From: an uncultured Granulosicoccaceae bacterium | GTDB lineage: Bacteria > Pseudomonadota > Gammaproteobacteria > Granulosicoccales > Granulosicoccaceae | DNA length: 61,238 bases | Assembly: GCA_938035525.1 (NCBI GenBank) | Contig: CALHOI010000029.1 | Span: forward strand, 1-61,238 | Direction of reading: 5' to 3' | In this document: piece after piece, positions 7,957 to 44,210 of the stretch | How positions within the stretch are numbered: the stretch's first letter is position 1 | Layout of the letters: the number at the start of each line of letters is the position of its first letter | Translations under genes and position numbers: made by a program | Notes under the pieces: generated by a model | Told to the model about the DNA's origin: nothing | What the model saw: the letters and a program-made list of their open reading frames with translations, nothing else | Databases searched by the model: none

Positions 7957-8119
7957 TTTATCTCCTGGCAGAGTCAAGTGTAAAAGTCATTATCTGCTGG
8001 CCCTATAATTACCAAATAGTGAGCCATTAGTACAGTAAGTCAGATATTTCTTTCGAAGGCACTGGATGTAGGCTAGAGTTATGAATTGAGCCTTAAGATC
8101 TGTAATGGAGTGTACAAGA

Positions 8120-31893: not shown

Positions 31894-33135
31894 ATGAGTG
31901 TTTCAACCCCACCAGCAGTGCCACGTACCGGTTGGAGAACGCCGGCTTTGGTGCTGGTTGCCGGGTGCCTGATCGCTATGATTGGGTTTGGCGTGCGCTC
32001 AGCGCTGGGGCTGTTTCTAGAGCCCATGACCGTAGACCGGGGCTGGACACGAGAGTCATTTGGCTTCGCGCTGGCGTTGCAGAATTTATTCTGGGGTCTT
32101 GGATTACCAATAGCCGGGGCACTGGCCGATAAATACGGCTCTTCGCGCGTCATCATGTTTGGCGCACTGACTTACGCCGCAGGGCTCTTTGGCATGACCG
32201 TGGCCGAAGCGCCATTCATGCTAAACGTGTTTGCCGGCGTGTTAAGCGGAATTGGTATTGCTTTCTCTGCGTTCACGCTTGCACTGGCATCCATGGTGCG
32301 CGTTGTCGGAGTTGAGAAGCGTGCTTTGGTGCTGGGTCTGGGAACGGCTGCCGGGTCTTTTGGGCAGGTGATTTTCTCACCCATTAGTCAGGGTTTTATT
32401 GAATACTCTGGTTGGTCTGCAACACTCACCATATTGTCTTTAACGGTGCTGTTCCTAATACCGTTGGCCATAGTGCTGCCCGCTGTGCTTAGCAGTCAAT
32501 CGGCGCAGTCGCAACATAACAACGCTAAGCAATCTTTAAAAGAAGCTGTGCGCGAAGCCATCGGGCATAAAGGGTTTGTACTACTCACCACCGGTTTTTT
32601 TGTGTGCGGGTTTCACGTGGCTTTTATAACAGTACATTTCCCAGCCTATGTTCGCGACCTTGGCCTTGACCCAAAATACGGCGCTTACAGTTTGGCTCTT
32701 ATTGGCTTGTTTAATATTGTTGGATCATTTGGCTCTGGCATAGTAGGGCAGAAATACAGCATGAAGATGAGTCTATCGACCATTTATTTTCTGCGAGCCT
32801 GCGTCATCCTGGCCTTGCTGTTGTTACCCAAAACACCTCTGGTGATATTGTTGTTTGCCAGCGTTATGGGCATATTGTGGCTATCCACCGTACCGCTCAC
32901 CACCGGCATCATTGCGCAAGTGTTTGGCGTGCAATACATGGCAACCTTATTCGGGATTGTTTTTTTAAGTCACCAAATCGGTAGCTTCATTGGCGTATGG
33001 ATGGGCGGTGTACTTTACGATCAAACCGGCAGCTACAACGGCATGTGGTGGGCGGGTATTTTCTTTGGCGTGCTGGCAGCGTTAATCCATTTACCCATTA
33101 ATGAAAAACCGTTGGCTCGGCTTAGTGCTGCTTAG
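31894..33135 (+). CDS. Major facilitator superfamily transporter
   Basis: A 413-residue inner-membrane protein with 12 predicted helices in two halves. The likely start is the ATG at 31894; the frame is open to 31849. The pattern GLFLEPMTVDRGWTRESFGFALALQNLFWGL resembles monocarboxylate/oxalate-formate type MFS carriers. Substrate unknown. It is the last core-looking gene before the accessory island, and its stop is only 28 bp before the first cassette gene. Confidence 0.88.
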   Translation: MSVSTPPAVPRTGWRTPALVLVAGCLIAMIGFGVRSALGLFLEPMTVDRGWTRESFGFALALQNLFWGLGLPIAGALADKYGSSRVIMFGALTYAAGLFGMTVAEAPFMLNVFAGVLSGIGIAFSAFTLALASMVRVVGVEKRALVLGLGTAAGSFGQVIFSPISQGFIEYSGWSATLTILSLTVLFLIPLAIVLPAVLSSQSAQSQHNNAKQSLKEAVREAIGHKGFVLLTTGFFVCGFHVAFITVHFPAYVRDLGLDPKYGAYSLALIGLFNIVGSFGSGIVGQKYSMKMSLSTIYFLRACVILALLLLPKTPLVILLFASVMGILWLSTVPLTTGIIAQVFGVQYMATLFGIVFLSHQIGSFIGVWMGGVLYDQTGSYNGMWWAGIFFGVLAALIHLPINEKPLARLSAA

Positions 33136-33163
33136 GTTGGTATTTTCAACTTGAAGGGCAGCG

Positions 33164-33436
33164 ATGGAGAAGGATTTTATTGAGCGTGTATTGAAAAAAT
33201 CGGGTACATTTAATAACGGAAGATACGATAATGAATTCGCCGACCATATCAATTCATTTTTTGGAGCTGGTGAATATGAGAATACTATTCTTTTACTCGA
33301 AGTGCCAATGCATCAAGATATTCCCATAGATATTTATAATAATGTGTTTGAAGGGACAGCAAGTCACTTGGTATCCAGCGCTTTTCTGATTTATGAAGAA
33401 CTAGATAATCTAAGTTCGTCTTCAAGTGCTAATTAG
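33164..33436 (+). CDS. Small acidic protein of unknown function (cassette 1)
   Basis: A 90-residue soluble, acidic protein without a family I recognise; it ends in a Ser run. The base composition is richer in A/T than its upstream neighbour. Its stop lies 15 bp before the first attC site, the usual spacing for a gene in an integron cassette, so it is read as the first cassette gene. Its 5' boundary with the MFS gene has no visible attC or attI site. Confidence 0.6.
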   Translation: MEKDFIERVLKKSGTFNNGRYDNEFADHINSFFGAGEYENTILLLEVPMHQDIPIDIYNNVFEGTASHLVSSAFLIYEELDNLSSSSSAN

Positions 33437-33451
33437 TTTATTAGACGCGCT

Positions 33452-33550
33452 GTCTAACAGTACCGTGAACTCGACGGTTGCAATTGCAAAGCAACCCGGT
33501 ACGCCAGAACGCTTAGCAATTGCAACTGCAAGTTACGGAAGTTGTTAGGC
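33452..33550 (+). other. attC1 integron recombination site
   Basis: It begins with R'' GTCTAAC (33452-33458) and ends with R' GTTAGGC (33544-33550). Inside, CCGTGAACT pairs with AGTTACGG except for one extra G on the left arm, the expected extrahelical base. The central arms GTTGCAATTGC and GCAATTGCAAC pair almost perfectly around a loop. This box, spacer, bulge and central-stem architecture is diagnostic of a cassette attC site. Confidence 0.85.
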
Positions 33551-33665
33551 GTATCAATTTGCACTTCATATGAGATCTTGAATATTCAATTTGATAAGGT
33601 GCTGATTATTGGCGCTTTATTGAGGTTTTGGCGATATACCTTCAGGCAATGCTAAAATTATAGAT

Positions 33666-33881
33666 ATGATTGATTGGTCCACATGTGAGTACGTCCAGCA
33701 AAGCCCAGAGCGCGTCAGTGGTGTATGGGTTTTCGAAGGAACACGCGTACCAGTATCAGCACTATTTGAAAATCTGGAGGATGGAGCTCAGATTAACGAG
33801 TTTGTTGAATGGTTTCCAGGGGTCTCCATCGAACAGGTTAAAGGTGTGCTCGAACATGCTGCGCGAAGTTCGGCTGCGTAA
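33666..33881 (+). CDS. DUF433 antitoxin-like protein (cassette 2)
   Basis: A 71-residue protein with the DUF433 pattern: an N-terminal region with GVWVFEGTRVPVSALFENLEDG, then a winged-helix-like segment ending in WFPGVSIEQVKGVLEHA. DUF433 proteins usually precede a PIN-like DUF5615 gene and are taken as antitoxins. The partner starts four bases after the stop. The pair sits between attC1 and attC2, and toxin-antitoxin pairs are common cassette cargo. Confidence 0.85.
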   Translation: MIDWSTCEYVQQSPERVSGVWVFEGTRVPVSALFENLEDGAQINEFVEWFPGVSIEQVKGVLEHAARSSAA

Positions 33882-33884
33882 CCA

Positions 33885-34205
33885 TTGAAAGTACTATTTG
33901 ATCAAGGCACGCCAGTTCCTCTGCGTAAAGACCTCAAACTGCACGAAGTTTCCACAGCTCACGAGTTGGGTTGGTCTATGCTGGAGAACGGTGAGTTGTT
34001 ATCGGCGGCCGAAAACGACGGCTTCGATATTTTCGTAACCACTGATCGTAACCTGCAGTATCAGCAAAATCTTTCTGACCGACAAATATCGGTTGTTGTG
34101 ATATCAACGACCAGTTGGCCTAGAATTAAAACTGTAGTAAATATCGTGGTCTCTGCGATAAATGCGGCAAGTCCGAATTCTTTTGTTGAAGTTGAAATTC
34201 CGTAA
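33885..34205 (+). CDS. DUF5615 PIN-like toxin (cassette 2)
   Basis: A 106-residue protein starting with TTG. It opens with VLFDQGTPVPLRK (early Asp of the PIN-like fold) and carries GFDIFVTTDRNLQYQQN with paired Asp. The segment ISVVVISTTSW follows. This is the DUF5615 (Mut7-C/PIN-like) fold, a predicted ribonuclease toxin partner of DUF433. It overlaps nothing and is followed 53 bp later by attC2. Confidence 0.85.
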   Translation: MKVLFDQGTPVPLRKDLKLHEVSTAHELGWSMLENGELLSAAENDGFDIFVTTDRNLQYQQNLSDRQISVVVISTTSWPRIKTVVNIVVSAINAASPNSFVEVEIP

Positions 34206-34257
34206 TTCACCAGCAACAAGTACTCTTACAATAGCAGCTTGCACATTATTCATCAGC

Positions 34258-34361
34258 GCCTAACATTTCAATGCAGGCGAACAGATTGCGCTCAGGTCGC
34301 AACCTTAAATACGTCAGAACGCGCCCTAAGCGCAACTGTCGCTGATTGTATGTTATTAGAC
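34258..34361 (+). other. attC2 integron recombination site
   Basis: R'' GCCTAAC (34258-34264) and an R' box in which GTTA is followed by an extra TTA (34353-34361). CAATGCAG on the left pairs with CTGATTG on the right except for one extra G. The centre TTGCGCT pairs with AGCGCAA. The central sequence around AGAACGCGC is shared with attC3. The site is 104 bp and in the same orientation as attC1. Confidence 0.8.
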
Positions 34362-34478
34362 CTACTGAGCAGATAAAACACTCATGCGCAACGGTGAGTG
34401 CCTCACAATGCGCATAAGTGGCAAGTGCGGCGGCAGTTACACTTATCTATTCAATTTGATTCGGAAGAGAGGAAGAGA

Positions 34479-34649
34479 ATGCACATTGGTTTACGGTTAT
34501 TCATTGCGCTACTCATCATAGTATTCGGTGTGCTTCAGGCCGGGGTCGTCGCTGGTGTGTCGCCAATAATGAGACCCATCGTTCTATTGGTAACGCTTGG
34601 TCTTTTGTTATTCTTTTGGCATAAGACAAAGCCTGACGTAGGGTCGTAA
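34479..34649 (+). CDS. Small two-helix membrane protein (cassette 3)
   Basis: A 56-residue protein with two hydrophobic helices (about residues 5-25 and 32-47) and a short charged end. The start ATG at 34479 follows a strong purine-rich GAGAGGAAGAGA site; an upstream in-frame start at 34398 is unlikely. Function unknown. It is followed 10 bp later by a lipoprotein gene, so the two form one cassette between attC2 and attC3. Confidence 0.6.
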   Translation: MHIGLRLFIALLIIVFGVLQAGVVAGVSPIMRPIVLLVTLGLLLFFWHKTKPDVGS

Positions 34650-34659
34650 TTCTAAAATT

Positions 34660-35307
34660 ATGAATAGAATTTTACGAATCATCTCTGTTGTTTTAGTAAA
34701 AAATATGGCGGTGCAAATAGCTTGCCTCTGCGTTTTGTTTTCATGCGCGTTTACACCAGCTCTTTACAAAGAAAAATCAAACATCTACGTAGAAGAAATA
34801 TCCTCATTGTGGGTTACGGAAGATGAAGCGAGTATTGTTGTACTGACTCCCAAATATCACTACGTTTTTGAAGCCCCTCCGCTCATAATGGCTTCGCTGA
34901 AATCGGACTTTGCACGTAAAGTCAACGCGAGATTTGATCGATTTCATGTAGGCAAGAACAACGGAATTACCGGTCAAGTTTTACTCAAGGTTCTTCAGGT
35001 GACTGAAACTGAATTTCAAAGCGCTCGTACGTTAGGGTATAAAGGGAGCACTACTGATGAAATAGGAGCGTATGTGGTTGTAAATGGTGTACGTTATTTA
35101 TCAAATAACGATACTCCGAGAACCCAGCCATATTATCTGAACAAGAAGCATGAAATAGAAGTTAGTGAGTCGAGCCCAATACTAGATAGTGCTGTTAGCG
35201 CAGCTCTAACACCAATTGCGATAGTTGGGGATGGAGTTTTAATGTTAGGAGGTCTAGTGTTAACCCCAATTATATTACCCGTTATTAGCGCAATACATGA
35301 GCCCTAA
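34660..35307 (+). CDS. Putative lipoprotein of unknown function (cassette 3)
   Basis: A 215-residue protein with an N-terminal hydrophobic helix ending in a lipobox-like LFSC, and a second hydrophobic stretch near the C-terminus (PIAIVGDGVLMLGGLVLTP). The middle is mixed alpha/beta without a family I recognise. The codons are A/T-rich compared with the core genes. There is no clear ribosome-binding site, so it may be coupled to the small membrane protein just upstream. Confidence 0.6.
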   Translation: MNRILRIISVVLVKNMAVQIACLCVLFSCAFTPALYKEKSNIYVEEISSLWVTEDEASIVVLTPKYHYVFEAPPLIMASLKSDFARKVNARFDRFHVGKNNGITGQVLLKVLQVTETEFQSARTLGYKGSTTDEIGAYVVVNGVRYLSNNDTPRTQPYYLNKKHEIEVSESSPILDSAVSAALTPIAIVGDGVLMLGGLVLTPIILPVISAIHEP

Positions 35308-35380
35308 AAATTGTTCTATTAATATAATCGAACTACAAATGATGCAGGTCAATGAATAGACTAAATGTGTGTAATCGCAC

Positions 35381-35477
35381 ACCTAACATGCCGCTTCAGC
35401 AATCGGTTGCGATCAGCGCTCAACCCCAAACCTTAGAACGCGCACTGAGCGCAACCGTTGCGGAGCTGGTACTGGGC
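35381..35477 (+). other. attC3, degenerate integron site
   Basis: Left box ACCTAAC (35381-35387) is intact, and the arm GCAATCGGTTGCG pairs with CGCAACCGTTGC except for one extra T. The central AGAACGCGC is shared with attC2. The right box reads ACTGGGC (35471-35477) where GTTAGGC is expected, so the cleavage bases are lost and the site is probably dead. It marks the end of the recognisable array. Confidence 0.65.
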
Positions 35478-35902
35478 CTTTCACCCTGGGCGATCCAGCG
35501 GCTGCTGCTAAGACGTGTGTGTTGGCATCAGAGATTACCTAGCACCACCCAGCTGGGGCAGTTCTAAAATGTTAAGTCGTCACAATAACTAAAAATAACT
35601 GTTGAAGATTTATTTTAATAACATTAGTATTGCAACCATGATGAATATCCAGATAACAAAACAACTCAGCAACCCGACCTGTCGCCATAATTTTATGGAG
35701 TCGGATCTGAGTGCGCGGGTGTATATGCGGGAATAGTTATCTAGTAGTTCTTTTTTTAGTTTGCTATTAAACCCGCTCCTCGAAGCGGGTTTTTTCGTTT
35801 CTGGGCCTATAAAAATAGGTAAAAAAACACAGAACGATAATTAAGCACAATGAATAAATAACGATGACTTAGAGATAGAAAATGAAATGATTTAACTATA
35901 AA
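35478..35902. other. Non-coding junction between cassette array and tRNA array
   Basis: About 425 bases without a convincing gene. It includes an A/T-rich stretch with a possible 32-residue frame (35638-35736) that has no ribosome-binding site, a strong hairpin terminator, a small palindrome (CCTAT/ATAGG at about 35806-35820), and then A-rich DNA before tRNA-Asn. The tRNA array's promoter should lie after the terminator, but I see no clear -35/-10 pair. Confidence 0.5.
35769..35796 (+). terminator. Intrinsic terminator before tRNA array
   Basis: Nine-pair stem AAACCCGCT (35769-35777) with AGCGGGTTT (35784-35792), six-base loop, ending in a run of T. It insulates the tRNA array from cassette transcription. 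Confidence 0.85.
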
Positions 35903-35980
35903 TGCCGGTTAGCACTCTTGGTGAGCGCGTCGCACTGTTAATGCGAAATGAGGTCAGTTCGATCCTGACACCGGCAGCCA
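35903..35980 (+). tRNA. tRNA-Asn (GTT)
   Basis: Acceptor TGCCGGT/ACCGGCA, discriminator G and encoded CCA. The anticodon stem TCGCA/TGCGA encloses loop CTGTTAA with anticodon GTT. T arm GTCAG-TTCGATC-CTGAC is perfect. The D stem has one A-C mismatch. It is the first member of the array and looks functional. Confidence 0.88.
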
Positions 35981-35999
35981 AACAATAGAAAAGGCATTT

Positions 36000-36075
36000 T
36001 GCAACGTGGTGTAGTTGGTAACACGCGGGACTTTGAATGAAAGAATCGCTGCATCTTATCCAGCCTTTGCTGCCA
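36000..36075 (+). pseudogene. tRNA-Gln (TTG)-like, broken 3' half
   Basis: Exactly 76 bases, with a good D arm (GTGT-AGTTGGTA-ACAC), anticodon loop CTTTGAA (anticodon TTG) and encoded CCA. The 3' side of the anticodon stem reads TGAAA where TCCCG is needed, and the T loop reads ATCTTAT instead of TTCGAnn. The acceptor has two mismatches. It keeps full length but cannot form a normal tRNA; it may be decayed or a non-canonical RNA. Confidence 0.6.
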
Positions 36076-36130
36076 TTTTCTAAATTAATTTAACTGTTTG
36101 AAACGGCCACGTTTTTTATAAACGAATTTT

Positions 36131-36206
36131 GCCGATGGGTTCCTGCGGCCGGGAAATCTGCCTGTCTAGTAGATCGTAGCGAGTTCGATTCTCGTCATCG
36201 GCGCCA
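36131..36206 (+). tRNA. tRNA-Asp (GTC)
   Basis: A complete 76-base cloverleaf: acceptor GCCGATG/CATCGGC, D stem TTCC/GGAA, anticodon stem TCTGC/GTAGA around CTGTCTA (anticodon GTC), T arm GCGAG-TTCGATT-CTCGT, discriminator G and encoded CCA. Unusual points are G instead of U at position 8 and U at position 37. Confidence 0.82.
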
Positions 36207-36373
36207 ATTAGAAGCCAACCTGAGTTGTTGGTGGATGATCTTTTACAACTAGGGGTGTTGCGCGAGTAGCACAAGAAAGTAGGTCTGGGCTAATGCCCGG
36301 GTAACCCATTTTCGGTGTGCTGCTCGCTGTGCGTTGAGGTGTTAGGTCATGTCCAGCCAGTACCATCAGTTAC
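36207..36373 (+). other. Structured spacer within the tRNA array
   Basis: No tRNA found here, but strong pairing is present. An 11-bp stem (36262-36272 with 36317-36327, one G-U) encloses a 6-bp hairpin (36285-36290 with 36295-36300, loop TAAT). Another stem AGTTGT/ACAACT lies upstream near 36225-36249. A GTTAGGT box at 36340-36346 recalls an attC R' box, but no matching left box is present. It may be an unknown RNA or a decayed tRNA. Confidence 0.4.
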
Positions 36374-36449
36374 GGAGCTTAGACCGATCGGCTTAGGTAC
36401 CGGTCTTTTAAACCGGCTTTGGTGGGTTCGATTCCCACAGGCTCCACCA
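36374..36449 (+). tRNA. tRNA-Lys (TTT)
   Basis: A 76-base tRNA: acceptor GGAGCTT/AGGCTCC, anticodon stem CCGGT/ACCGG around CTTTTAA (anticodon TTT), T arm GTGGG-TTCGATT-CCCAC, discriminator A and encoded CCA. This is the best-conserved member of the array. tRNA-Lys(UUU) is a classic target of anticodon nucleases such as PrrC. Confidence 0.9.
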
Positions 36450-36478
36450 GTATTTACGAAAGTGATTCGTCAGTAAGT

Positions 36479-36549
36479 ATTTCGCCCTAGTGATAGGGCG
36501 TTGGTCTCCAAAACCGAAAGCTAGAGTTCGACTCTACGGCGGAGTTCCA
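36479..36549 (+). pseudogene. tRNA-Trp (CCA)-like, minimal arms
   Basis: A 71-base element with acceptor ATTTCGC/GCGGAGT (two wobbles) and anticodon arm TTGGT-CTCCAAA-ACCGA (anticodon CCA). The 3' end is TCCA. The D arm is CCTA-GTGA-TAGG directly after the acceptor, lacking the usual linker and the GG pair. The T arm closes as TAGAG-TTCGA-CTCTA with a five-base loop. The D-loop/T-loop contact would be absent. Confidence 0.6.
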
Positions 36550-36593
36550 ACAATACGTCTGATGCTTTTTACACACCCCTAGTTACCTATTTT

Positions 36594-36667
36594 ACGCCTC
36601 TACCAATTGGCAGAGGCACATGGTTTAAGCCCTCGCTAGGCGAGTTCGACTCTCGTCCGGCGCACCA
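36594..36667 (+). pseudogene. tRNA-Leu (TAA)-like element
   Basis: It has a normal T arm (GCGAG-TTCGACT-CTCGT) and an encoded ACCA end. A D-arm-like hairpin (CTCT/AGAG around ACCAATTGGC) and a loop TTTAAGC, which would present anticodon TAA, are also present. The anticodon stem pairs at only three of five positions, only four acceptor pairs form (ACGCC side with GGCGC side), and there is no long variable arm. Identity is tentative. Confidence 0.5.
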
Positions 36668-36673
36668 GATGTT

Positions 36674-36760
36674 AGCGGGTAGCGCGCAGGGCGCGAGTAA
36701 TTTTTGAAAACTTGGCTGGTGGATAAGATCGCTAATGGTTCAATTTAATACCCACTGCCA
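36674..36760 (+). pseudogene. tRNA-like element with decayed anticodon and T arms
   Basis: Acceptor AGCGGGT/ACCCACT (one C-A mismatch), discriminator G and encoded CCA, with a short D hairpin GCGC/GCGC. The loop region TTTTTGAAAA could show TTG or TTT, and the T-loop sequence TTCAATT lacks a pairing stem. It is six bases after the previous element and five before the next. Amino-acid identity cannot be assigned. Confidence 0.45.
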
Positions 36761-36765
36761 ATATT

Positions 36766-36853
36766 GGAAGGTAAATCGGTCAGAGTGCTGGATCTGTTTG
36801 CCAAACAGACTGTGCGGTAGTGGCATCGGTTTCGATTACCGTGTCTTCCGCCG
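36766..36853 (+). tRNA. tRNA with Gly anticodon (GCC) and long variable arm
   Basis: An 88-base cloverleaf: acceptor GGAAGGT/GTCTTCC (two wobbles), anticodon stem TCTGT/ACAGA around TTGCCAA (anticodon GCC), four-pair T stem CGGT/ACCG with loop TTCGATT, and discriminator G. A 16-base variable region can form a TGC/GCA stem. Long variable arm, GGAAG acceptor and discriminator G are tRNA-Ser features; glycine tRNAs lack the arm. The 3' end is encoded as CCG, not CCA. It ends 25 bp before the HNH gene. Confidence 0.55.
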
Positions 36854-36878
36854 ATGTTGAAACAAGTGAGTTAGCACG

Positions 36879-37439
36879 ATGCAAGCGAAAATTTTAAAGC
36901 TCAATAAAGCAGGTTCTCCACAGGCATGGATTGACCTAGAGCAAGCTGCACTCATTACCGCTAAAGGCCTGGTGTTATGGACAATGGGTGAGATGACTAA
37001 CGTGCTGCGTGGTGGTTACCAGAAAGACGGTGCCCGCACATTAATGGAAATTCCAGAGATTATTGCGGTCGATGGTCAGGTAAAAGAAAAAACGGTACCG
37101 AACATGACTAACTCATTGCTTTTTTCGCGTGACGATTACATGTGTCTGTATTGTGGTGTGCAATTCTATCGCTGTGATCTATCGCGCGATCATGTTATGC
37201 CACGTTCGCGAGGTGGCCCAGATACGTGGGTGAATTGCGTTACAGCGTGTAAACGTTGTAATCATCGTAAAGACGATAGAACGCCGGAAGAAGCCAATAT
37301 GAAATTACTGGCGGTGCCGTTTTCACCAAATTTGTATGAATGGTTTTATTTATCTAATCGGAATATAAATGGCGATCAGATGGATTACTTAAAGTCACAG
37401 TTTAAAAATGTGCAATTGAGGAACGTATTGCTTGCGTAG
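36879..37439 (+). CDS. HNH endonuclease
   Basis: A 186-residue protein with a zinc-ribbon HNH nuclease core: Cys89-x2-Cys92, catalytic DH at 104-105 in SRDHVMPRSRGGPDTW, Asn119, and Cys124-x2-Cys127 followed by NHRK. The first 80 residues resemble the N-terminal domain of stand-alone bacterial HNH proteins that may bind DNA. It starts 25 bp after the last tRNA-like element and 44 bp before rtcB on the same strand, suggesting a common transcript. It could be a homing-type nuclease moving the island, or a nuclease acting within the system; the sequence does not decide. Confidence 0.88.
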   Translation: MQAKILKLNKAGSPQAWIDLEQAALITAKGLVLWTMGEMTNVLRGGYQKDGARTLMEIPEIIAVDGQVKEKTVPNMTNSLLFSRDDYMCLYCGVQFYRCDLSRDHVMPRSRGGPDTWVNCVTACKRCNHRKDDRTPEEANMKLLAVPFSPNLYEWFYLSNRNINGDQMDYLKSQFKNVQLRNVLLA

Positions 37440-37483
37440 GGACGTAAGTGGTATTTATGTAGTGTAAAAAAGGATGAATAAAA

Positions 37484-38899
37484 ATGAACGTTAAAATCAC
37501 TGGAAAAGATTTAATGAGGCACGGTGCAGTTGAAGGCCCCTGGATACCAAAGGCAATTGAGCATGGTAACGCGCTTATTGCTAACGGTATGTCGTTCGAC
37601 GACGCTCTAGCGGCTGCCGTTGCACTAGCCCCTGCGCCAAGAATGCCTTTGCGTGATACTGGAGAACATGAATTTTTCATGAACATCGATGCTGGTGATA
37701 ACGAACTGGAACAGCAAAATGTTCAAAAAGTTCGCGATACCATGCGGGAAGTTATGCGCACACCAGGAATCAAGCAAGGGGCAGTTATGCCTGATGCGTG
37801 TCCAGCTGGACCAATTGGCACCATTCCAGTAGGTGGTGTTGTGGCGTCAGAGTATATTCACCCTGGTATGCATTCAGCTGATATTTGTTGCTCAGTGGCG
37901 ATTTCAGTTTTGGGTGATATTGAGCCTAAAAAAGCGCTTGATGCCGTTGAGTCTGTAACGCATTTTGGTCCAGGTGGTCGAGCACGTGGTCAGCAGTGGT
38001 CAATTTCTAAAAATATGGCTGACGCATTCGGTGCAAACCCGTATTTAAAGACAATTAGAAGTCTGGCGGTTGAGCACATGGGAACCCAAGGTGATGGTAA
38101 CCACTTTGCTTTTGTTGGTACGCTGAAATCAACTGGGCAAACGGCGTTAGTGACTCACCATGGTTCGCGAGCGCCAGGTGCACGTTTGTTTAAGGCAGGC
38201 ATGTCTGATGCGATTAAACACACTAACCGTGTTGCTGAGGGCGTAAAAAAGCAAAACGTGTGGTTAGACCCTGATACGCGTGAGGGTGAAGATTATTGGA
38301 ATGCGCTGCAGATTATTCGTCAGTGGACCAAAGAGAATCACTACAACATTCACGATAAATCAGTGGAATTGCTAAACGCGAAAGTGATTGATCGTTTTTG
38401 GAACGAGCATAATTTTGTGTTTCGTAAATCAGACGGCTTGTTTTATCACGCTAAGGGTGCAACCCCTGCCTTTGATGGATGGGCACATGACGCAACGGAG
38501 CTAACGCTTATACCGTTGAACATGGCTCAGCCTATTTTAATTGCAAAGGGCTTGAACTCCAATAACGGGCTTGGGTTTTCACCGCATGGAGCGGGGCGTA
38601 ACTCATCGCGTACGGCACATAAAAAGTCGTTACAGGGTATGAGTGATCGGGATGTGTTTGATTCTGAAACTAAGGATATCGATGCTCGATTCTTCATGAA
38701 GAACATCGATGTATCAGAACTACCCAGTGCGTACAAGGACGCTGATACTGTCCGTTCGCAGATTGATGAGTACAAGCTCGCTTCAATAGTAGATGAAGTC
38801 ATCCCGTACGGCTCAATTATGGCGGGCGACTGGGAGCGCGACGCACCTTGGAAGAAAAGGCGTGAAGCGCGTAGAAAAAACAGGGACGCCAACAAGTAA
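37484..38899 (+). CDS. RtcB-family RNA ligase (divergent)
   Basis: RtcB joins 2',3'-cyclic phosphate (or 3'-phosphate) and 5'-OH RNA ends using GTP and manganese. The 471-residue protein keeps the expected active-site residues: Asp133 and Cys136 in ADICC, His207 in GDGNHF, His225 in HHGSR, His309 in EHNF, and the guanylated His368 in SPHGAGR. It differs from housekeeping RtcB in length and in having PLNMAQ where PGSMG is usual. It also ends in a very basic tail (KKRREARRKNRDANK). The start ATG has an AAGGATG site. No prfH or archease gene is next to it; its neighbours are the HNH gene and the tRNA array. Confidence 0.9.
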   Translation: MNVKITGKDLMRHGAVEGPWIPKAIEHGNALIANGMSFDDALAAAVALAPAPRMPLRDTGEHEFFMNIDAGDNELEQQNVQKVRDTMREVMRTPGIKQGAVMPDACPAGPIGTIPVGGVVASEYIHPGMHSADICCSVAISVLGDIEPKKALDAVESVTHFGPGGRARGQQWSISKNMADAFGANPYLKTIRSLAVEHMGTQGDGNHFAFVGTLKSTGQTALVTHHGSRAPGARLFKAGMSDAIKHTNRVAEGVKKQNVWLDPDTREGEDYWNALQIIRQWTKENHYNIHDKSVELLNAKVIDRFWNEHNFVFRKSDGLFYHAKGATPAFDGWAHDATELTLIPLNMAQPILIAKGLNSNNGLGFSPHGAGRNSSRTAHKKSLQGMSDRDVFDSETKDIDARFFMKNIDVSELPSAYKDADTVRSQIDEYKLASIVDEVIPYGSIMAGDWERDAPWKKRREARRKNRDANK

Positions 38900-38909
38900 T
38901 TGTTGGCGT
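38886..38909 (+). terminator. Hairpin over the rtcB stop codon
   Basis: A perfect 10-bp stem ACGCCAACAA (38886-38895) with TTGTTGGCGT (38900-38909) and loop GTAA includes the rtcB stop. There is no T tract, so it may protect the 3' end of the transcript rather than terminate it. Confidence 0.45.
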
Positions 38910-38992
38910 TGCCTTACGACCTGAAGGAAATTGGTGCTCAAGGCGGTAAGTTTCTGAAGCTGCGGCACGCTTTACCCCAAAAAATGCTTCCT

Positions 38993-39027
38993 TGACAGGG
39001 TGTTAAATATACATACAATGTATGTAT
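38993..39027 (+). promoter_or_regulatory. brnTA promoter and operator
   Basis: TTGACA at 38993-38998, and TACAAT at 39014-39019 after a short 15-base spacer. A perfect inverted repeat ATACATAC-AAT-GTATGTAT (39009-39027) covers the -10 and the ATG of brnT at 39026. BrnA-type antitoxins autorepress their operon, so this is the likely binding site. The transcript would be leaderless or nearly so, and no ribosome-binding site is present. Confidence 0.7.
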
Positions 39028-39313
39028 GATCGAATTCGACTGGGATCCAGCTAAGGCAAACAGAAATCAAAAAAATCACGGTGTTTCCTTCGAGGAGGCA
39101 AGATCCGTATTTTTTGATGATTTCGCCAGACAGTTTTTTGATGAAACTCACTCAGAAAAAGAAGACCGTTTCCTCATGCTGGGCGTTAGTAACAAGACAC
39201 GGCTATTGCTTGTTTGCCACTGCGAAGTAGAGTCCGAAAATACTATCCGAATTATTTCCGCAAGAAAAGCGACGGCGAGGGAGCGTCAATTGTACGAGGG
39301 GCCAATGCCATGA
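39026..39313 (+). CDS. brnT: BrnT-family toxin
   Basis: A 95-residue type II toxin with a RelE-like fold that cleaves RNA and blocks translation. Family features: FDWDPAKANRNQKNHGVSFEEA at the start, the segment with DRFLMLGVSNKTRLLLVCHCE, and the end IRIISARKATARERQLYE. Its stop overlaps the antitoxin start as ATGA. Operator and promoter lie immediately upstream. Confidence 0.92.
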   Translation: MIEFDWDPAKANRNQKNHGVSFEEARSVFFDDFARQFFDETHSEKEDRFLMLGVSNKTRLLLVCHCEVESENTIRIISARKATARERQLYEGPMP

Positions 39314-39540
39314 AAAAAGAATACGATTTATCGTCCATGAAATCGCGTCGTAATCCTTACGCTGCAAAGCTTAAGCGTCAGGTTACTATAAGAATGGGGG
39401 ACGACGTTATTGAATACTTTAAGGCGATGGCTGAGGAAACAGGAATTCCATATCAAACGCTTATAAATCTGTATTTGAGAGATTGTGTTGCGAATCAGAG
39501 AGAACTTGATCTTACCTGGCATGGTCGCGGTGCGGCATAG
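39310..39540 (+). CDS. brnA: BrnA-family antitoxin
   Basis: A 76-residue antitoxin with the BrnA pattern: N-terminal toxin-binding part (SMKSRRNPYA), then a ribbon-helix-helix DNA-binding domain with VTIRMGDDVIEYFKAMAEETGIPYQTLINLYL. The start ATG at 39310 overlaps the brnT stop; the frame is open upstream inside brnT but is not used. It would repress the upstream palindromic operator. Confidence 0.9.
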   Translation: MKKEYDLSSMKSRRNPYAAKLKRQVTIRMGDDVIEYFKAMAEETGIPYQTLINLYLRDCVANQRELDLTWHGRGAA

Positions 39541-39646
39541 CATGTCGTATAGGTGCGAGTGAACGTGTCGAGGTACAAAATCAATTTGTAGTAGGAGTAT
39601 CGGAAGTACTAACTGATAGGTCAGGCATTGATTTCAGTTGTTCTCT

Positions 39647-40792
39647 TTAGCTCGCTGATGCAATGTTCTTTTTCGGATCGTAAAACGGTTTTTCAACAAC
39701 CCTTGCCGCCACTGACCCGACTGACGTATGAACTTCTACAGCGGTTTCAATCTCAGCACAGTCCTTAGATACCATCGCCAGGGAGATGTTTTTCTGGAGG
39801 CGAGGGGAGTAAACGGCGGATGTGACTTTTCCAACCGTTTCTCCATTTTTGGTAATCGCCCAGAAGGTGGTGTTCGGGCCTTTTAATGGTGGGCAATCAA
39901 TGATCAATCCAACTTGCTTGCGTAACACACCTGTGTCGCGGATCTTTCGCAGCGCAGATTTGCCGATAAATTCTGCATCCATATCCACATCGACCAGCCG
40001 GTCTAGCCCGAGCTCATAGGGGTTGGTGTTGATGTTTGCATCGGCGTGATAAGACAGCATGCCTCCTTCAATGCGTCGGATAGACGAGGTATGACCGGGT
40101 TTGAGGTTGAAAGGTGCGCCCGCCGTCATGATCTTTTCCCACAGTTCGTCACCGCGGGACCCGTCTTGCAGATAAATCTCGTACCCCAGCTCGCTTGACC
40201 AACCCGTACGCGATACGATCAATGGAATACCATCCAGCTCGACTTTGCGTAGCCAGTAGTAGCGCAAGTCCAAAATGCTTTCGCCAAACAGGGCTTTCAT
40301 TACGTCGCCGGATTTTGGACCTTGAAGTTGTAAGGGCGATACATCGGGTTCACGAATGGTGACATCCAGATCGGAATGGACTGCAACGCCCTGAGCCCAC
40401 AAGAGAATATCGCTGTCAGCCAGGGAAATCCAAAAGTGATTGTCAGCGAGTCGCAGCAGGATAGGATCGTTTAGGATGCCGCCGTCAGCATTGGTAATCA
40501 GGATGTATTTACACTGACCTACAGCAAGAGTGGAGAGGTCTCGGGGTGTCAACGTCTGGACGAACTGAGCTGCATCGGGGCCAGTGATTTCCACCTGACG
40601 TTCCACCGCTACGTCACATAGAATTGCATCATTGACCAGATTCCAGAAATTGGCTTCCGGATCACCAAAGTCGCGCGGAATGTACATATGGTTGTACACA
40701 GAGAATGCGCGTGCGCCCCAGCGTACAGTTGCATCAAAATAGGGGGATTTTCGAATCTGGGTGCCGAAACCAAAGTCGTCTGTGTTTGCCAT
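39647..40792 (-). CDS. DMSP demethylase-like GcvT-family protein
   Basis: A 381-residue tetrahydrofolate-dependent aminomethyltransferase fold. It shares several segments with DmdA: YNHMYIPRDF, VAVERQVEITGPDAAQFVQTLTPRDLS, NDPILLRLADNHFWISLADSD and YSPRLQKNISLAMV. DmdA transfers a methyl group from dimethylsulfoniopropionate to THF in marine bacteria. Non-DMSP members of this family are common, so the substrate is not certain. The ATG at 40792 is preferred; an in-frame GTG at 40813 lies within a hairpin. It stands alone, without dmdB, dmdC or dmdD. Confidence 0.75.
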   Translation of the reverse strand: MANTDDFGFGTQIRKSPYFDATVRWGARAFSVYNHMYIPRDFGDPEANFWNLVNDAILCDVAVERQVEITGPDAAQFVQTLTPRDLSTLAVGQCKYILITNADGGILNDPILLRLADNHFWISLADSDILLWAQGVAVHSDLDVTIREPDVSPLQLQGPKSGDVMKALFGESILDLRYYWLRKVELDGIPLIVSRTGWSSELGYEIYLQDGSRGDELWEKIMTAGAPFNLKPGHTSSIRRIEGGMLSYHADANINTNPYELGLDRLVDVDMDAEFIGKSALRKIRDTGVLRKQVGLIIDCPPLKGPNTTFWAITKNGETVGKVTSAVYSPRLQKNISLAMVSKDCAEIETAVEVHTSVGSVAARVVEKPFYDPKKNIASAS

Positions 40793-41035
40793 GCTGCTTG
40801 CCTGTTCCGGCACAGCCTTAATAAGGGCTGTGTGTAGTGGGTAGATTGTTGGAGCAATTTACCATCAAGCGGCACAAGGATCGGACTTTAGTTTTCGATA
40901 CGAAGGACCGATTGGTTTGATTTTCCGTGCGATGTAGTACGTTTGGTCTTCAGTTGCTCATAGTGCCGCTGTGTACGCAGCTCATAACAACAGCAACAGC
41001 GTTGCTGTCTGACTATGTATTATGCCGCATCGCAA

Positions 41036-41254
41036 TCAATCCCGAGCCACACAGACGATCGCTTGTCGCACGGCAGCTCGATACTCGGCTAAGGTGACAT
41101 TCCACACTGACAAAGTGTCATCGTCAGGTACGGCTAAGAGCATTGCTTGGAGTTCGTTGAGGGGATGATATGTGTACAGAGAATCGAGTAGAGAATTCGC
41201 TTCAATAACGATGCCGGTTTGCTGGCCAACATTTTTCAGTAAAGATGCAGTCAT
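41036..41254 (-). CDS. Small protein of unknown function
   Basis: A 72-residue soluble protein with no family I recognise. AGAGG sits about eight bases before the ATG, which supports it as a real gene. The sequence is mixed helical (ANSLLDSLYTYHPLNELQAMLLAV). It lies alone between the DmdA-like and cobalamin genes. Confidence 0.5.
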   Translation of the reverse strand: MTASLLKNVGQQTGIVIEANSLLDSLYTYHPLNELQAMLLAVPDDDTLSVWNVTLAEYRAAVRQAIVCVARD

Positions 41255-41599
41255 ATTCGGTTACCTCTTATTCCAATTGACCGATAAAGCATGTTTGCAT
41301 GCAAGCTGTTGTTGCCCGATGAGTCTAGCGATAATTGTGCTGCTTACCCCTAATTCGTGGGAAATTCGAGAAAAAATACCCGTATTGATACGTTATTCAA
41401 TATGATAATTCTCGCGATTAGGCAAATCGGGTAAGTTACATTTGGAATTTGCGTTGGCCGCGAAGCTAGGTGGTATCACCCGATTACGCGGACAACTCGC
41501 CCCAAAGATCCTGGGCTTTAGATTGGCAAGCATGGTTGATTGACACTGAATGCGCTAGACGCCGTTTATAAGTCGCTTACCTTGATGGATGTCTATGAA
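41255..41599. other. Intergenic region with imperfect inverted repeat
   Basis: About 345 bases with no gene. Between 41343 and 41435 an inverted repeat is seen in pieces: CTTACCC with GGGTAAG, CCTAAT with ATTAGG, TTCGAGAA with TTCTCGC, with uneven spacers and an A/T-rich centre. It could be a hairpin in an untranslated region or a remnant of a mobile element. Confidence 0.5.
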
Positions 41600-42223
41600 T
41601 CACACACGTAAATTCTGTGCTACATCTAACTTTTTATCAAACTCCGGCCTGTTTACGTAAATAGCACGATTGCCTTTGGCATGCAGCACCAATTTAGTGA
41701 CGCTCGCGTGGTCGATTTCAAATTGCATTGCGCAGCGCAGCGGAATATCAAGTGCTATGCACAGAAGTGCCCGAATGCTACCGCCGTGAGCGGTTACCAA
41801 GCATGTGTTGTTAGTTTCAGTGGCTTGCTCCTCTAACCAACGTCGACAGCGTTCGGCTAATTCAGTAAACGATTCGCCGTTAGGCGGTCGATTGTTTACC
41901 CAGTCTTCCGACCATGTGTTAAGCGCTTGTGGGTCGCTATGATGAACCGCGTCCCAGCTTAGGCCTTCCCAGTCGCCAAAATTGATTTCTTTTATGCGCG
42001 CATCGGCCTGGAAAGATTCACCCGTTAGCAAACTCATCGTTTGCTGCGCTCTGATTAGGTCGCTGGTAAGGTAGGAGTTGATGTACCTTGTGCCAAGGCT
42101 ACGTTTAAGTGCTGTGATGCTCTGCATGCCTTTGTCAGACAAAGCCACATCATTAAAACCAGCGACTATGCCTTCATCTGCCACCACAGTGTGACCGTGC
42201 CTGACCAGATAAAGGGTAGTCAC
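41600..42223 (-). CDS. cobC: Alpha-ribazole phosphatase (histidine phosphatase)
   Basis: Removes the phosphate from alpha-ribazole 5'-phosphate (or from cobalamin phosphate) in the nucleotide-loop branch of cobalamin synthesis. It has 207 residues from a GTG at 42223 that overlaps the cobS stop as GTGA. The catalytic RHG motif is in LYLVRHGHTV, and the second His is in TAHGGSIRALL. The operon context with cobS and cobT supports cobC over a general phosphoglycerate mutase. Confidence 0.9.
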   Translation of the reverse strand: MTTLYLVRHGHTVVADEGIVAGFNDVALSDKGMQSITALKRSLGTRYINSYLTSDLIRAQQTMSLLTGESFQADARIKEINFGDWEGLSWDAVHHSDPQALNTWSEDWVNNRPPNGESFTELAERCRRWLEEQATETNNTCLVTAHGGSIRALLCIALDIPLRCAMQFEIDHASVTKLVLHAKGNRAIYVNRPEFDKKLDVAQNLRV

Positions 42224-43014
42224 GATGGCAAGCTTGCGACAATGCTCAGATAAACACAGATTTCCACGCATTTATTGCCAGCACCCAGACAGTCTCCGGT
42301 AATACCGCCAAACTGTTTTATAAACCAATGTCGCATAACAACAATGCCGGCAAGCGTGATAAAGGAGGCAATAAAGGCGCTTTGGGTTAAGGGCAGGTAA
42401 CAGGCAACAATAACCAACAGCGTCGTTAAGCTACCAACGAGCATGCGTTGTTTGTTGACTCCGGCAACAAATACTTTGTTGGCCGCATCGTCCCGAGCGT
42501 AGTTAGTGGTGTAGATCAGTGCCAGACTCGACCAACGCCCAAGCACGTGTGCCAACACAAAAGTTGCAAAGATAACCGACAACCCCTTATGTTTGCTGCT
42601 GATATCAATCAGTGTTATTGCGCACAGCACACTTGCCAGTATCAGTGCCAGGCCACCGTAAGTGCCTATACGGCTGTCGCGCATAATGTCCAGTTTTTTC
42701 TCTTTCGTCCACGCGCCCGCGCTATCGGCAACATCGGCCAAGCCATCTTCATGAAAAGCACCCGTGACTAAAGCGGCGCTAATCATGCTGAGTATGACTG
42801 CTATGTTGGTGGACCAGAAAAAGCTCGCGATGTAGAAAACCAAACCAACGATCGAACCAACGATAACCCCAACCAAAGGAAAGTACTGTGTGCTGGCGGC
42901 CAGCACCCGAGGATCGCCACTGCCTGATTGACCTACCGGTATACGAGTCAGGAACATAATGGCTGTGGCCAGTGTGCGCCGTTGTTGTTCAAGTTGCGTA
43001 AGCAGTGCACTCAT
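42220..43014 (-). CDS. cobS: Adenosylcobinamide-GDP ribazoletransferase
   Basis: Membrane enzyme joining adenosylcobinamide-GDP and alpha-ribazole. It has 264 residues and about six hydrophobic helices. The family motif FHEDGLADVADSAGAW near residues 85-100 has the acidic active-site residues, and GGITGDCLGAGN lies near the C-terminus. Overlaps cobT by four bases and cobC by four bases. Confidence 0.95.
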   Translation of the reverse strand: MSALLTQLEQQRRTLATAIMFLTRIPVGQSGSGDPRVLAASTQYFPLVGVIVGSIVGLVFYIASFFWSTNIAVILSMISAALVTGAFHEDGLADVADSAGAWTKEKKLDIMRDSRIGTYGGLALILASVLCAITLIDISSKHKGLSVIFATFVLAHVLGRWSSLALIYTTNYARDDAANKVFVAGVNKQRMLVGSLTTLLVIVACYLPLTQSAFIASFITLAGIVVMRHWFIKQFGGITGDCLGAGNKCVEICVYLSIVASLPS

Positions 43015-44081
43015 GTCGTTTTGTCAGACACGCCTGCCTGCACGAAAGTCGACATCTGATTTAACATGGCACACGCTGCTTTTAACAATGGGAATGCCAG
43101 GGCTGTTGCCGAGCCCTCACCGAGGCGCATGTTTAAGTTAAGCAGTGGGTATGCATCTAATGCGTCAAGCGCAGTTTTGTGCGCACGCTCTGCTGATTGA
43201 TGAGAGAACAACAAACACGAGCGAACATCGGGATTGTGTTTAACAGCCACCAAGGTGGCTGCAGTGGATATAAACCCATCAACCAACACTGGCAGTTGGT
43301 GTTTATGGGCTTCGAGAATAGCCCCAGTCATTGCGGCAATTTCAAATCCGCCAACCCGCTGCAGAATATCCATTACATTTTTACACTTGCGTTGATGCAA
43401 CTCTATCGCGCTCTGAATAACCTGAGTTTTATGTTGCACAGCGTCATCATCTATACCTGTGCCTCGTCCAGTGACATCCATTGCCGGTAAATTTAATAGT
43501 ATTGCAATAATGGCGGATGCGGAGCTGGTGTTAGCAATACCCATCTCACCCAATCCAACACAATCAACATTAGCTTCGCGAGCGCGCTGAACGGCCTGAC
43601 GACCAACATCAAGACTAGCGTCAAGCTGCTGCTGGCTCATGGCAGCTTGTTGTGCGAAATTGGACGTACCGTTTGCAACCTTTGCATGCACGATATCTGA
43701 CATATCTCCTAGGTCGCCGTTAACACCAACATCAATGGCTTCAATGTTCACACCAGCGGCCGCACCCAACACGCAAACAGCGGCGCCGCCGCCAGCAAAG
43801 TTACCCATCATTTGCGCTGTGACTTCTGAAGGGTATGCACTGACACCTTCGTTAGCTATGCCGTGGTCGGCACCGAACACAATGATGCGGCCTTTCTCCA
43901 GTGATGGTGTGATTGAATCTTGTAGTAGCGCCAGATGGGCCGCAACAATTTCTAATTGACCGAGTGAGCCGGGTGGCTTGGTTTTTTGATCGATCGCGTT
44001 GCGTACTTGATTAAAACTGATCGCGCTTTTAGGGGACGAAAACCAATCTTCTAGTTGGGTCCACTGGTTGATTTGGTTCAT
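43011..44081 (-). CDS. cobT: Nicotinate-nucleotide-dimethylbenzimidazole phosphoribosyltransferase
   Basis: Activates the lower-ligand base of cobalamin as alpha-ribazole phosphate. It has 356 residues, with KPPGSLGQLE in the N-terminal region and IVFGADHGIANEGVSAYPSEVT. GEMGIANTSSASAI and the Gly/Glu-rich C-terminal LGEGSATALAFP (catalytic Glu region) are also present. It is the first gene of cobT-cobS-cobC. No cobalamin riboswitch is visible in the 129 bases before it. Confidence 0.96.
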   Translation of the reverse strand: MNQINQWTQLEDWFSSPKSAISFNQVRNAIDQKTKPPGSLGQLEIVAAHLALLQDSITPSLEKGRIIVFGADHGIANEGVSAYPSEVTAQMMGNFAGGGAAVCVLGAAAGVNIEAIDVGVNGDLGDMSDIVHAKVANGTSNFAQQAAMSQQQLDASLDVGRQAVQRAREANVDCVGLGEMGIANTSSASAIIAILLNLPAMDVTGRGTGIDDDAVQHKTQVIQSAIELHQRKCKNVMDILQRVGGFEIAAMTGAILEAHKHQLPVLVDGFISTAATLVAVKHNPDVRSCLLFSHQSAERAHKTALDALDAYPLLNLNMRLGEGSATALAFPLLKAACAMLNQMSTFVQAGVSDKTT

Positions 44082-44210
44082 GGTTAAGTTGGTGCAGTGG
44101 GACCTGTTGATCGTTCTGATTAGTATGGGTCATACAGCCGTGCTTGTCTTATTTGCACTTTAGGCGCGAGCAAGGACGTCCATTTCCTTGCTGTATCGAT
44201 AAACTCAATA

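Follow-up and report, generated by a model that had tools for sequence, protein, structure and literature searches.

A tRNA gene array, an HNH endonuclease gene and a divergent RtcB ligase gene behind one leader and terminator: a candidate tRNA resupply and RNA repair operon in a Granulosicoccaceae bacterium

Several described systems tie RtcB-like genes or tRNA arrays to damaged tRNA or failing translation. In Pseudomonas aeruginosa, the RtcB-like gene armZ (PA5471) is controlled by the leader PA5471.1 and is turned on when ribosomes stall or when the CCA-adding enzyme is lost, according to the available text of two reports (PMC12057347; PMC13041342). The Rsr-Y RNA-RtcB operon of Salmonella is described as regulated by damaged tRNAs (PMC7790460, available text). 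In the trn operon and TrcR regulon of Anabaena, a silent tRNA array and rtcB share one control that is relieved by translational stress (PMC10272220, in the part available). Arrays in mycobacteria, their plasmids and their phages bring together closely packed tRNA genes and an HNH gene (PMC5966550 and PMC12803027, as excerpted); those of M. avium are presented only as a putative antidefense system (PMC12803027, same excerpt). In phage T6, the nuclease gene segB beside tRNA-Tyr is reported to drive a change in tRNA copy number that counters a tRNA-cutting defence (PMC13096335, available text).

The locus considered here lies on contig CALHOI010000029.1 of an uncultured Granulosicoccaceae bacterium (positions 1 to 61,238, the whole stretch analysed, hereafter the window). 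Eight tRNA or tRNA-like elements, an HNH gene and an RtcB gene all lie on the plus strand, with gaps of 26 bp between array and HNH and 44 bp between HNH and RtcB; ARAGORN, Rfam, alignments to relatives' arrays and Pfam matches bear out this layout as given in the initial annotation. These parts are of known kinds; their combination was not found in the literature searched. The reading favoured here, from sequence comparison and with a probability of roughly 0.58, is that they form one inducible operon in which translation failure or tRNA loss would elicit tRNA resupply and RNA repair.

The left end of the conserved unit is an upstream element (35566..35601, plus strand; blastn and alignment) common to four loci with dissimilar left flanks. 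Blastn alignments of the window with the three other array loci begin at 35566, and those of the three among themselves about 9 bp earlier; TTGGCATAC is present in these three and absent from the window copy. An integron cassette was rejected, since in the three relatives the unit starts 5' of GTTAAGT (35571), which we take to resemble an attC core. Downstream lies a sigma-70-like promoter, TTGAAG-N17-TAGTAT (35602..35630, plus strand), 7 nt 5' of the leader ATG, from which a nearly leaderless mRNA is predicted. A general promoter scan (3 promoter-like sites, fewer than the shuffle mean of 6.1) did not list this site, which matches 8 of 12 consensus positions against a cut-off of 9. RtcR operons use sigma-54, and a sigma-54 promoter at TTGGCATACAAACTGTT was therefore considered; it was rejected because its -12 element misfits and, by eye, TTGAAG-N17-TANTAT beside the ATG fits better.

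The leader ORF of 32 codons (MMNIQITKQLSNPTCRHNFMESDLSARVYMRE; 35638..35736, plus strand) is followed, 32 nt 3' of its stop, by an intrinsic terminator, AAACCCGCT-CCTCGA-AGCGGGTTT plus a T run (35769..35797, plus strand), proposed as an attenuator. The terminator earlier noted just upstream of the array is real and strong, but it lies inside the conserved unit, behind the promoter-like sequence and the leader ORF. The idea that it merely ends the upstream gene was rejected: it ranks with the most strongly conserved segments here, and the unit's own leader precedes it. It belongs to the unit and is probably the attenuator controlling it. The 32-base terminator pattern is identical in G020, G016 and the window. 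A search of 57 genomes allowing up to three mismatches finds it in five, among them that of the window (the four array loci and an array-less RtcB locus in G002); the reversed control gives none. Spacing is likewise conserved: 27-32 nt from leader stop to terminator at all eight loci examined, and 7-8 nt from -10 to ATG at seven of them. Among 22 strong terminators in 33 scanned stretches, six have a leader ORF of this kind, all of them at RtcB or array loci, one being a new and decayed leader-HNH-RtcB locus without tRNAs in G021. Pairing between leader end and terminator arm gives a combined p of 1.9e-4 over seven related, non-independent loci and p<0.05 singly at three of eight; the leader RNA folds only slightly better than shuffles (z -1.8). 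No leader was found at the RtcB genes of G033 and G229.

The array-HNH-RtcB order recurs in the genus. In G016, 17 tRNAs are followed by HNH and by an RtcB that the contig end truncates; G020 (13 tRNAs) and G010 (8 tRNAs) carry array and HNH on contigs that end inside HNH. The leader and terminator seen in the window also precede all three of these arrays; the left flanks of the loci are dissimilar. Chance does not account for the layout, given the full order in G016 and the array-HNH part in both G020 and G010. The recurrence proposed for the layout was therefore found, but the complete three-part form appeared in just two genomes, one of them with the truncated RtcB. No RtcB was found in G020, and only a 51% identical one, elsewhere, in G010. 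Array-HNH-RtcB was not found beyond the genus. At E<=1e-40, the RtcB subfamily occurs in one other of 368 class genomes and five other of 397 phylum genomes, and ARAGORN places zero or one tRNA in the stretches retrieved around these six relatives. A phage origin was rejected: viral contigs yielded one RtcB relative, partial and lacking tRNAs, and no exact terminator copy. Zero or one tRNA lies near each of five phage RtcB genes (45-51% identity). A plasmid search with the whole unit returned no record covering 80% of it.

The leader-terminator geometry also stands 5' of four related array-less RtcB genes (G002, a second locus of G010, G011 and G029), and therefore the array is not the leader's necessary partner. 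These loci lend weight to a different account, in which two things lie side by side: an attenuator-controlled, armZ-like RtcB gene and an inserted HNH-tRNA array of plasmid or phage kind, with HNH homing and no tie to RtcB. The HNH gene encodes 186 aa (36879..37439, plus strand; PF14279, 54.9 bits; PF01844). It has the HNH domain of a homing endonuclease, and its place with the array matches known tRNA array units that carry an HNH gene. Its relatives occur in plasmid tRNA arrays (5 of 10 loci examined, with 19-31 tRNAs) and in the 9-tRNA array of phage SCTP-2, RtcB is not annotated in the annotated plasmid arrays L113-L115 and L210 or in L213, and SegB provides a precedent for nuclease-driven tRNA cluster change (PMC13096335, available text). 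Against insertion, the arrays of the window and G016 lie 3' of the leader, in line with HNH and RtcB, and G021 retains leader-HNH-RtcB without tRNAs. Moreover, the array HNHs of the genus are nearer to its chromosomal HNHs (54-57% identity) than to plasmid and phage array HNHs (31-43%), and a dN/dS of 0.04 against G020 (167 codons) seems low for a selfish nuclease. We therefore consider mere juxtaposition rather unlikely. The deep forks of the HNH tree were left open, and G026 has a 64% identical HNH with no tRNA around it. If the unit is instead one operon, HNH may be conserved as part of a working whole and not as a passenger.

The array itself (35903-36852) holds eight recognisable elements, of which ARAGORN reports three as intact: tRNA-Asn(gtt) (35903..35980; Rfam 34.9 bits; 0/78 mismatches to G020), tRNA-Asp(gtc) (36131..36206; 0/76) and tRNA-Lys(ttt) (36374..36449; Rfam 51 bits; 0/76). 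Two degenerate elements, Gln-like (36000..36075; 19.4 bits; aligned to G016 tRNA-Gln(ttg)) and Trp-like (36479..36549; 24.6 bits; 13/74 mismatches to G020 tRNA-Trp(cca)), matched Rfam at a relaxed threshold, neither of them reaching the gathering score of 29. Alignment to relatives' arrays identified a chimeric or degenerate Leu-like element (36593..36667; 31 bits to G016 tRNA-Leu(taa)), a degenerate Ser(tga)-like element with a long variable arm (36674..36760; 51.6 bits to G016 tRNA-Ser(tga); 8/88 mismatches to G020), a further Ser-like element with a long variable arm (36766..36852; anticodon GCC here and GCT in G020, by eye) and the 3' end remnant of a tRNA-Met (36337..36373; aligned to G020 L136 from 11367) beside a length difference to G020. 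All lie on the plus strand. Mismatches to G020 amount to 0/230 in the three intact tRNAs versus 42/389 in the five degenerate elements, and the window array has about half as many elements as that of G020, about eight of which are absent. It is a shortened, partly degenerate copy in which Asn, Asp and Lys are still intact; with three intact and five degenerate elements it is not a large, dense set for most amino acids (G016 has 17).

Such losses raise the prospect that the unit in the window is the dying remnant of a once working one, carried by a genomic island, its array mostly pseudogenes and its present function nil. An altered upstream element, the decayed copy in G021 and the absence of the region, about 11 kb, at the corresponding place in G014 and G010 point the same way. 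However, HNH and RtcB have open frames under purifying selection, and the -35, the terminator and the three intact tRNAs are unchanged relative to G020 at an HNH dS of 0.39. A remnant is thus unlikely. The claim of a single unit for tRNA supply and repair draws support from recurrence in the genus, from selection on both proteins and from the common leader and terminator, and has to be qualified by the reduced state of the array.

The ARAGORN-detected array tRNAs have best identities of only 0.64-0.76 to 30 host tRNAs of G000, a set that may be less than complete. This distance, together with the degenerate window elements, would suit a decoy role, in which tRNA-like elements occupy an anticodon nuclease as bait, comparable to the tRNA-like domain of YrlA, and do not work as tRNAs. 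Elsewhere in this RtcB subfamily, loci carry tandem YrlA-like (tRNA-mimic) units, and YrlA has been raised as a competitive nuclease inhibitor (Hughes 2020, PMC7790460, available text). Yet nearly all detected G016 array tRNAs encode a 3' CCA. By the usual identity rules (discriminator bases, G3:U70 for Ala, G73 for Glu), most have the expected discriminator base on inspection and Ala has G3:U70, the exception being Glu with A73 instead of G. In addition, Asn, Asp and Lys do not differ at all from their G020 counterparts, which suggests that they are in use. Bait is accordingly quite improbable. Anticodon-loop change as a general rule of nuclease evasion was rejected after comparison by eye with host tRNAs, from which some isotypes differ and others do not.

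The RtcB-family ligase (471 aa; 37484..38899, plus strand; PF01139, 102.9 bits against a cut-off of 27) belongs to a divergent subfamily, is 76% identical to G016 RtcB over residues 4-166 and has a dN/dS of 0.09. In an alignment with Pyrococcus RtcB, its DICC stands opposite DINC, in a stretch of only 4.6 bits, and its PHGAGR opposite CHGAGR, and GNHF, THHGSR and EHNF are seen by eye; these motifs presumably include the metal-site Asp/Cys and the guanylylated His. Its identity to RtcBs of Rhizobiaceae (58-62%) exceeds that to the leader-bearing RtcBs in its own family (49-53%). BrnT/BrnA follow the gene. The prfH neighbour that marks an RtcB2-PrfH pair is absent, and the corresponding RtcB model scores 46.3 bits against a cut-off of 271.8.

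In the operon reading, a promoter assumed to be constitutive would yield a nearly leaderless mRNA with the leader ORF and terminator. Ribosomes that reach the leader stop would mask its G-rich 3' end, letting the terminator fold and transcription stop. When tRNAs are cleaved, uncharged or scarce, ribosomes would stall within the leader or fail to get through it, and its free G-rich end would pair with the terminator 5' arm (CCCGC), allowing readthrough and co-transcription of tRNAs, HNH and RtcB. The array would then supply divergent replacement tRNAs, RtcB would reseal substrates with 2',3'-cyclic-phosphate/5'-OH breaks, and HNH would most likely drive recombination, gain or mobility of tRNA genes. 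Counted against this reading were the weak single-locus pairing, the modest folding of the leader RNA, the array-less leaders, the leaderless G033 and G229 RtcBs, the five degenerate elements, the RtcB gaps in G020 and G010, the tRNA-less G026 HNH and the affinity of RtcB to Rhizobiaceae.

A narrower version concerns asparagine. Asn makes up 24 of 196 stall-zone residues in eight leaders against 11.0 +- 3.0 expected, and tRNA-Asn is the first element in all four array loci. The Asn-rich leader might sense that charged tRNA-Asn is lost, the expected effect of an anticodon nuclease, whether colicin E5-like or of another kind, and antitermination would then express an array headed by tRNA-Asn, a ligase and an array-reshuffling nuclease. 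Were this tentative and on balance doubtful version true, a sense-replace-repair circuit would be complete in one transcript.

The locus places a tRNA array and an RNA-repair ligase under one apparent switch, and because that switch suggests failing translation as the signal, the question becomes directly testable. One anatomy here joins tRNA arrays, RtcB repair operons and the armZ attenuator. Among mycobacterial arrays, those of M. avium have 26-27 tRNAs, and RtcB is named in the available text of neither PMC5966550 nor PMC12803027. SegB likewise adjoins tRNA genes, but it is a GIY-YIG and not an HNH nuclease, the available text of PMC13096335 has no RtcB or RNA ligase, and amplification is only a possibility for the window. 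In Anabaena, the array is on a plasmid, rtcB is on the chromosome and a common repressor protein takes the place of a leader (PMC10272220, part available). RtcR-regulated Rsr-Y RNA-RtcB operons share the RtcB subfamily (about 59% identity), and Rhizobiaceae relatives have rtcR beside RtcB and, in one case, YrlA-like RNAs 5' of it. In contrast, the window has real tRNA genes and a leader-terminator as switch, with no match to rtcR, Rsr/TROVE or rtcA families in five neighbouring ORFs (33666-39540, an 83-codon ORF at 34398 left out) or to YrlA in 35500-36900. By analogy, the nearest precedent is the leader-peptide attenuation of armZ: in both, a short leader ORF and then a terminator precede an RtcB-like gene. 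The likeness is one of arrangement; the armZ product is an efflux pump anti-repressor, and the available accounts mention neither tRNA array nor HNH, both of which the window places between terminator and RtcB (PMC12057347; PMC13041342).

In the window, the array at 35903-36852 (+) is followed after 26 bp, on the same strand, by the HNH gene (36879..37439; PF14279/PF01844) and, 44 bp beyond it, by the RtcB gene (37484..38899; PF01139). Within the array, ARAGORN calls tRNAs for Asn, Asp, and Lys; it also calls an unrelated tRNA-Arg at 50472, and a search with Rfam at a relaxed threshold combined with alignment with relatives brings the array to eight recognisable elements plus a tRNA-Met remnant. 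About eight elements of the array in a related genome, G020, are missing here, and the window copy, judged by its sequence, is a reduced one. Relative to G020, the Asn, Asp, and Lys tRNAs carry no mismatch in 230 bases, whereas the five degenerate elements carry 42 mismatches over 389 aligned bases. One array spacer is likewise unchanged (0/56), so part of this conservation may be regional.

The initial annotation had placed array, HNH, and RtcB in one layout, which proves real and recurs, within one genus. Across 27 genus genomes (G000-G026, the window's own counted), HNH genes 80-96% identical to the window's were found in G020, G016, and G010, in the last only as 45 residues where the contig ends. 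In all three, a tRNA array precedes the HNH gene (13, 17, and 8 tRNAs, respectively, by ARAGORN), and all four arrays start Asn-Gln-Asp, with the window's Gln element weak and that of G020 not called by ARAGORN. G016 continues into an RtcB gene, 76% identical to the window's, that runs off the contig at residue 166. The G020 and G010 contigs stop inside HNH, before any RtcB position; the RtcB search of G020, whose array contig ends there, was empty, and the sole RtcB found in G010 (51% identity) lies elsewhere than its array. The full order is therefore seen in two genomes, with RtcB incomplete at the contig end in G016, and the array-HNH pair in at least four of the 27. Three of the four array contigs (L099, L136, and L138) break off within HNH or RtcB, a hint of strain variation or of repeats here. 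A further genome, G026, has a 64% identical HNH (contig C180, locus L137) with a distant RtcB about 4 kb off and no tRNA in 20 kb around the HNH, possibly another form of association.

The G016 array (L099:1403-5550) has peculiarities of its own. It holds two Leu-anticodon tRNAs of 77-78 nt with short variable loops, against 85-87 nt for the host tRNA-Leu seen, and its Gln, Met, and Phe members show, by eye, an unusual T-loop (ATCGT..). A cobalamin riboswitch (104.8 bits) lies some kilobases away, at L099:12449-12627.

The strongest new point is that array, HNH, and RtcB appear to share a control element, composed of a leader ORF (35638..35736) and a terminator (35769..35797), both on the (+) strand. 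Similarity among the four array loci starts at window position 35566, about 340 bp before tRNA-Asn (9 bp earlier in the other three), and to the left of it the loci are unrelated at the nucleotide level, with only short scattered matches in a translated search. The common stretch reads TTGAAG-N17-TANTAT, a start codon 7 nt on, the short ORF, and the terminator. With up to three mismatches, the terminator pattern occurs in 5 of 57 genomes (own counted), namely at the four array loci and in G002, where it stands directly before an RtcB gene; the reversed pattern gave no match. The same leader design precedes RtcB genes of about 50% identity in G010 (a second locus), G011, and G029, the promoter spacing of G029 not fitting, and is absent upstream of the similarly distant RtcBs of G033 and G229.

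In 37 RtcB loci, a scan reaching at most 500 bp back from the first start codon of the open frame (only about 100 bp for L040) found four in which a leader ORF of at least 26 codons precedes a terminator, one with an ambiguous 10-codon ORF, one with a terminator but no ORF, and 31 with none; the window and G016 fall into this last group, as their leaders sit on the far side of the array. A scan for strong terminators covered 33 stretches, the window included (946 kb over both strands), with a leader defined as an ATG ORF of 18-60 codons ending 25-34 nt before the hairpin. Six of the 22 strong terminators had such a leader, all six at RtcB or array loci, and the other 16 had none. Because the scanned stretches were picked for HNH or RtcB, the control consists of the other terminators within them. 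The leaders at L102-L104 do not appear in this set, as the scan either did not call their hairpins or held them to a stricter stem rule that they fail. A decayed copy without tRNAs in G021 (G021:C4, L100, reverse complement 7600-8450) is the one new case; there the leader and terminator lead, after about 20 bp, into an HNH piece that covers residues 1-96 and then 154-178, and an RtcB lacking its middle.

At all eight leader loci examined, the end of the ORF can pair with the 5' arm of the terminator. Against dinucleotide shuffles, the pairing gives p 0.046 in the window and 0.058, 0.002, 0.016, 0.10, 0.17, 0.19, and 0.26 at the other loci, with a combined p of 1.9e-4 when G020 is left out; taken whole, the window leader exceeds shuffles in folding by only a modest margin (z -1.8). 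In 8/8 loci, 27-32 nt separate the leader stop from the hairpin. Given this gap, a ribosome that has reached the stop codon would be expected to cover the G-rich end of the leader, and the terminator hairpin would stay free to fold. The stall zone, taken as the leaders minus the start Met and the last eight codons, is enriched in Asn, which accounts for 24 of its 196 residues over eight leaders (the G020 leader, almost the same as the window's, was excluded). Shuffles gave 11.0 ± 3.0 (p 0.0025, uncorrected for the 20 residues tested, in a pattern noticed post hoc). Asn makes up 4.8% of eight long window ORFs, and Lys, likewise A-rich, falls below expectation in the stall zone. With moderate confidence, we read the unit as a tRNA resupply and repair operon induced by failure of translation.

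The genome of the window, 87.8% complete, yielded no RtcB besides this one. Between the window and G016, RtcB dN/dS is 0.09 over 163 codons, with dS near saturation at 1.97, and the two proteins group together in the RtcB tree (100/98). The leader-bearing RtcBs of G002, G010, and G011 group with that of G033 and with RtcBs of Cellulophaga and Tenacibaculum phages (99/99); that of G029 is unplaced, and many deep forks are open. By tblastn, the subfamily also appears at 45-51% identity in Rhizobium, Bradyrhizobium, Tenacibaculum, and Cellulophaga phages (L105-L109). Three Rhizobiaceae plasmid loci carry it near a divergent rtcR, with the intervening gene annotated TROVE in one, and rtcR directly adjoins RtcB on Bosea and Phaeobacter plasmids. 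Tandem YrlA-like units stand just upstream of RtcB in 4/4 loci, five at L151:8126-8958 (-) and two each at L150:6112-6391 (+), L149:3709-4118 (+), and L003:4087-4549 (+; Shinella, the other three being from genomes of the phylum), only 1 of the 11 reaching the gathering score. By eye, these units seem to contain permuted tRNA 3' and 5' halves, with different tRNA-like sequences. Given these units and the tRNA array, the RtcB subfamily adjoins tRNA-like RNA of two quite distinct kinds.

The HNH gene belongs to a common family, present in 42 of 57 relatives (E≤0.001) and in 127 of 274 class genomes (E≤1e-25), mostly as open frames of 190-270 aa. Between the window and G020, its dN is 0.015 and its dS 0.386 (ratio 0.04, 167 codons). 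ARAGORN found no tRNA near HNH in 15 presumably chromosomal loci outside the arrays (L153-L167). On plasmids, 19-31 tRNAs surround HNH in 5 of 10 loci examined, out of 72 matching records; plasmid arrays of this size with this HNH include L113, L114, L115, L210, and L213, from Methylibium, Variovorax, Nostoc, Polaromonas, and Acidiphilium. At least five tRNAs occur in 3 of 16 viral-contig HNH loci scanned, out of 40, and phage SCTP-2 has nine tRNAs with HNH. The HNH-tRNA array link is thus recurrent, and two papers already describe it for mycobacteria (PMC5966550, PMC12803027). Near the plasmid-array tRNAs, AlkB is annotated in L113 and a release-factor-like protein in L114.

Genes that lie on either side of 33.1-44.26 kb in the window are direct neighbours in G014 and G010, separated by 258 and 141 bp, so the window holds about 11 kb extra there (33126-44262). 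GC is lower from about 33 to 39.5 kb, and the stretch also holds a GcvT-like gene and cobalamin genes. Two toxin-antitoxin-like pairs, DUF433/DUF5615 (33666-34205) and BrnT/BrnA (39026-39540), flank the repair unit on either side, and toxins of these types may be RNases.

Our literature search, in which subscription journals mostly and preprints wholly fell outside the scope, yielded no recognisable pairing of RtcB with a tRNA array and no recognised tRNA array behind a leader attenuator, which is weak evidence that none exists. The closest comparison is armZ of Pseudomonas aeruginosa, which lies under the leader PA5471.1 and whose product is described both as an RtcB-like RNA ligase and as an anti-repressor of MexZ; its attenuation is presented as a proposal still to be confirmed (PMC12057347). 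When the CCA-adding enzyme is lost, ribosomes associate more with the leader mRNA and armZ is expressed more strongly, a response that involves leader codons 3 and 4 (PMC13041342). This response supports the step from tRNA trouble through a stalled leader to the switching on of an RtcB-like gene.
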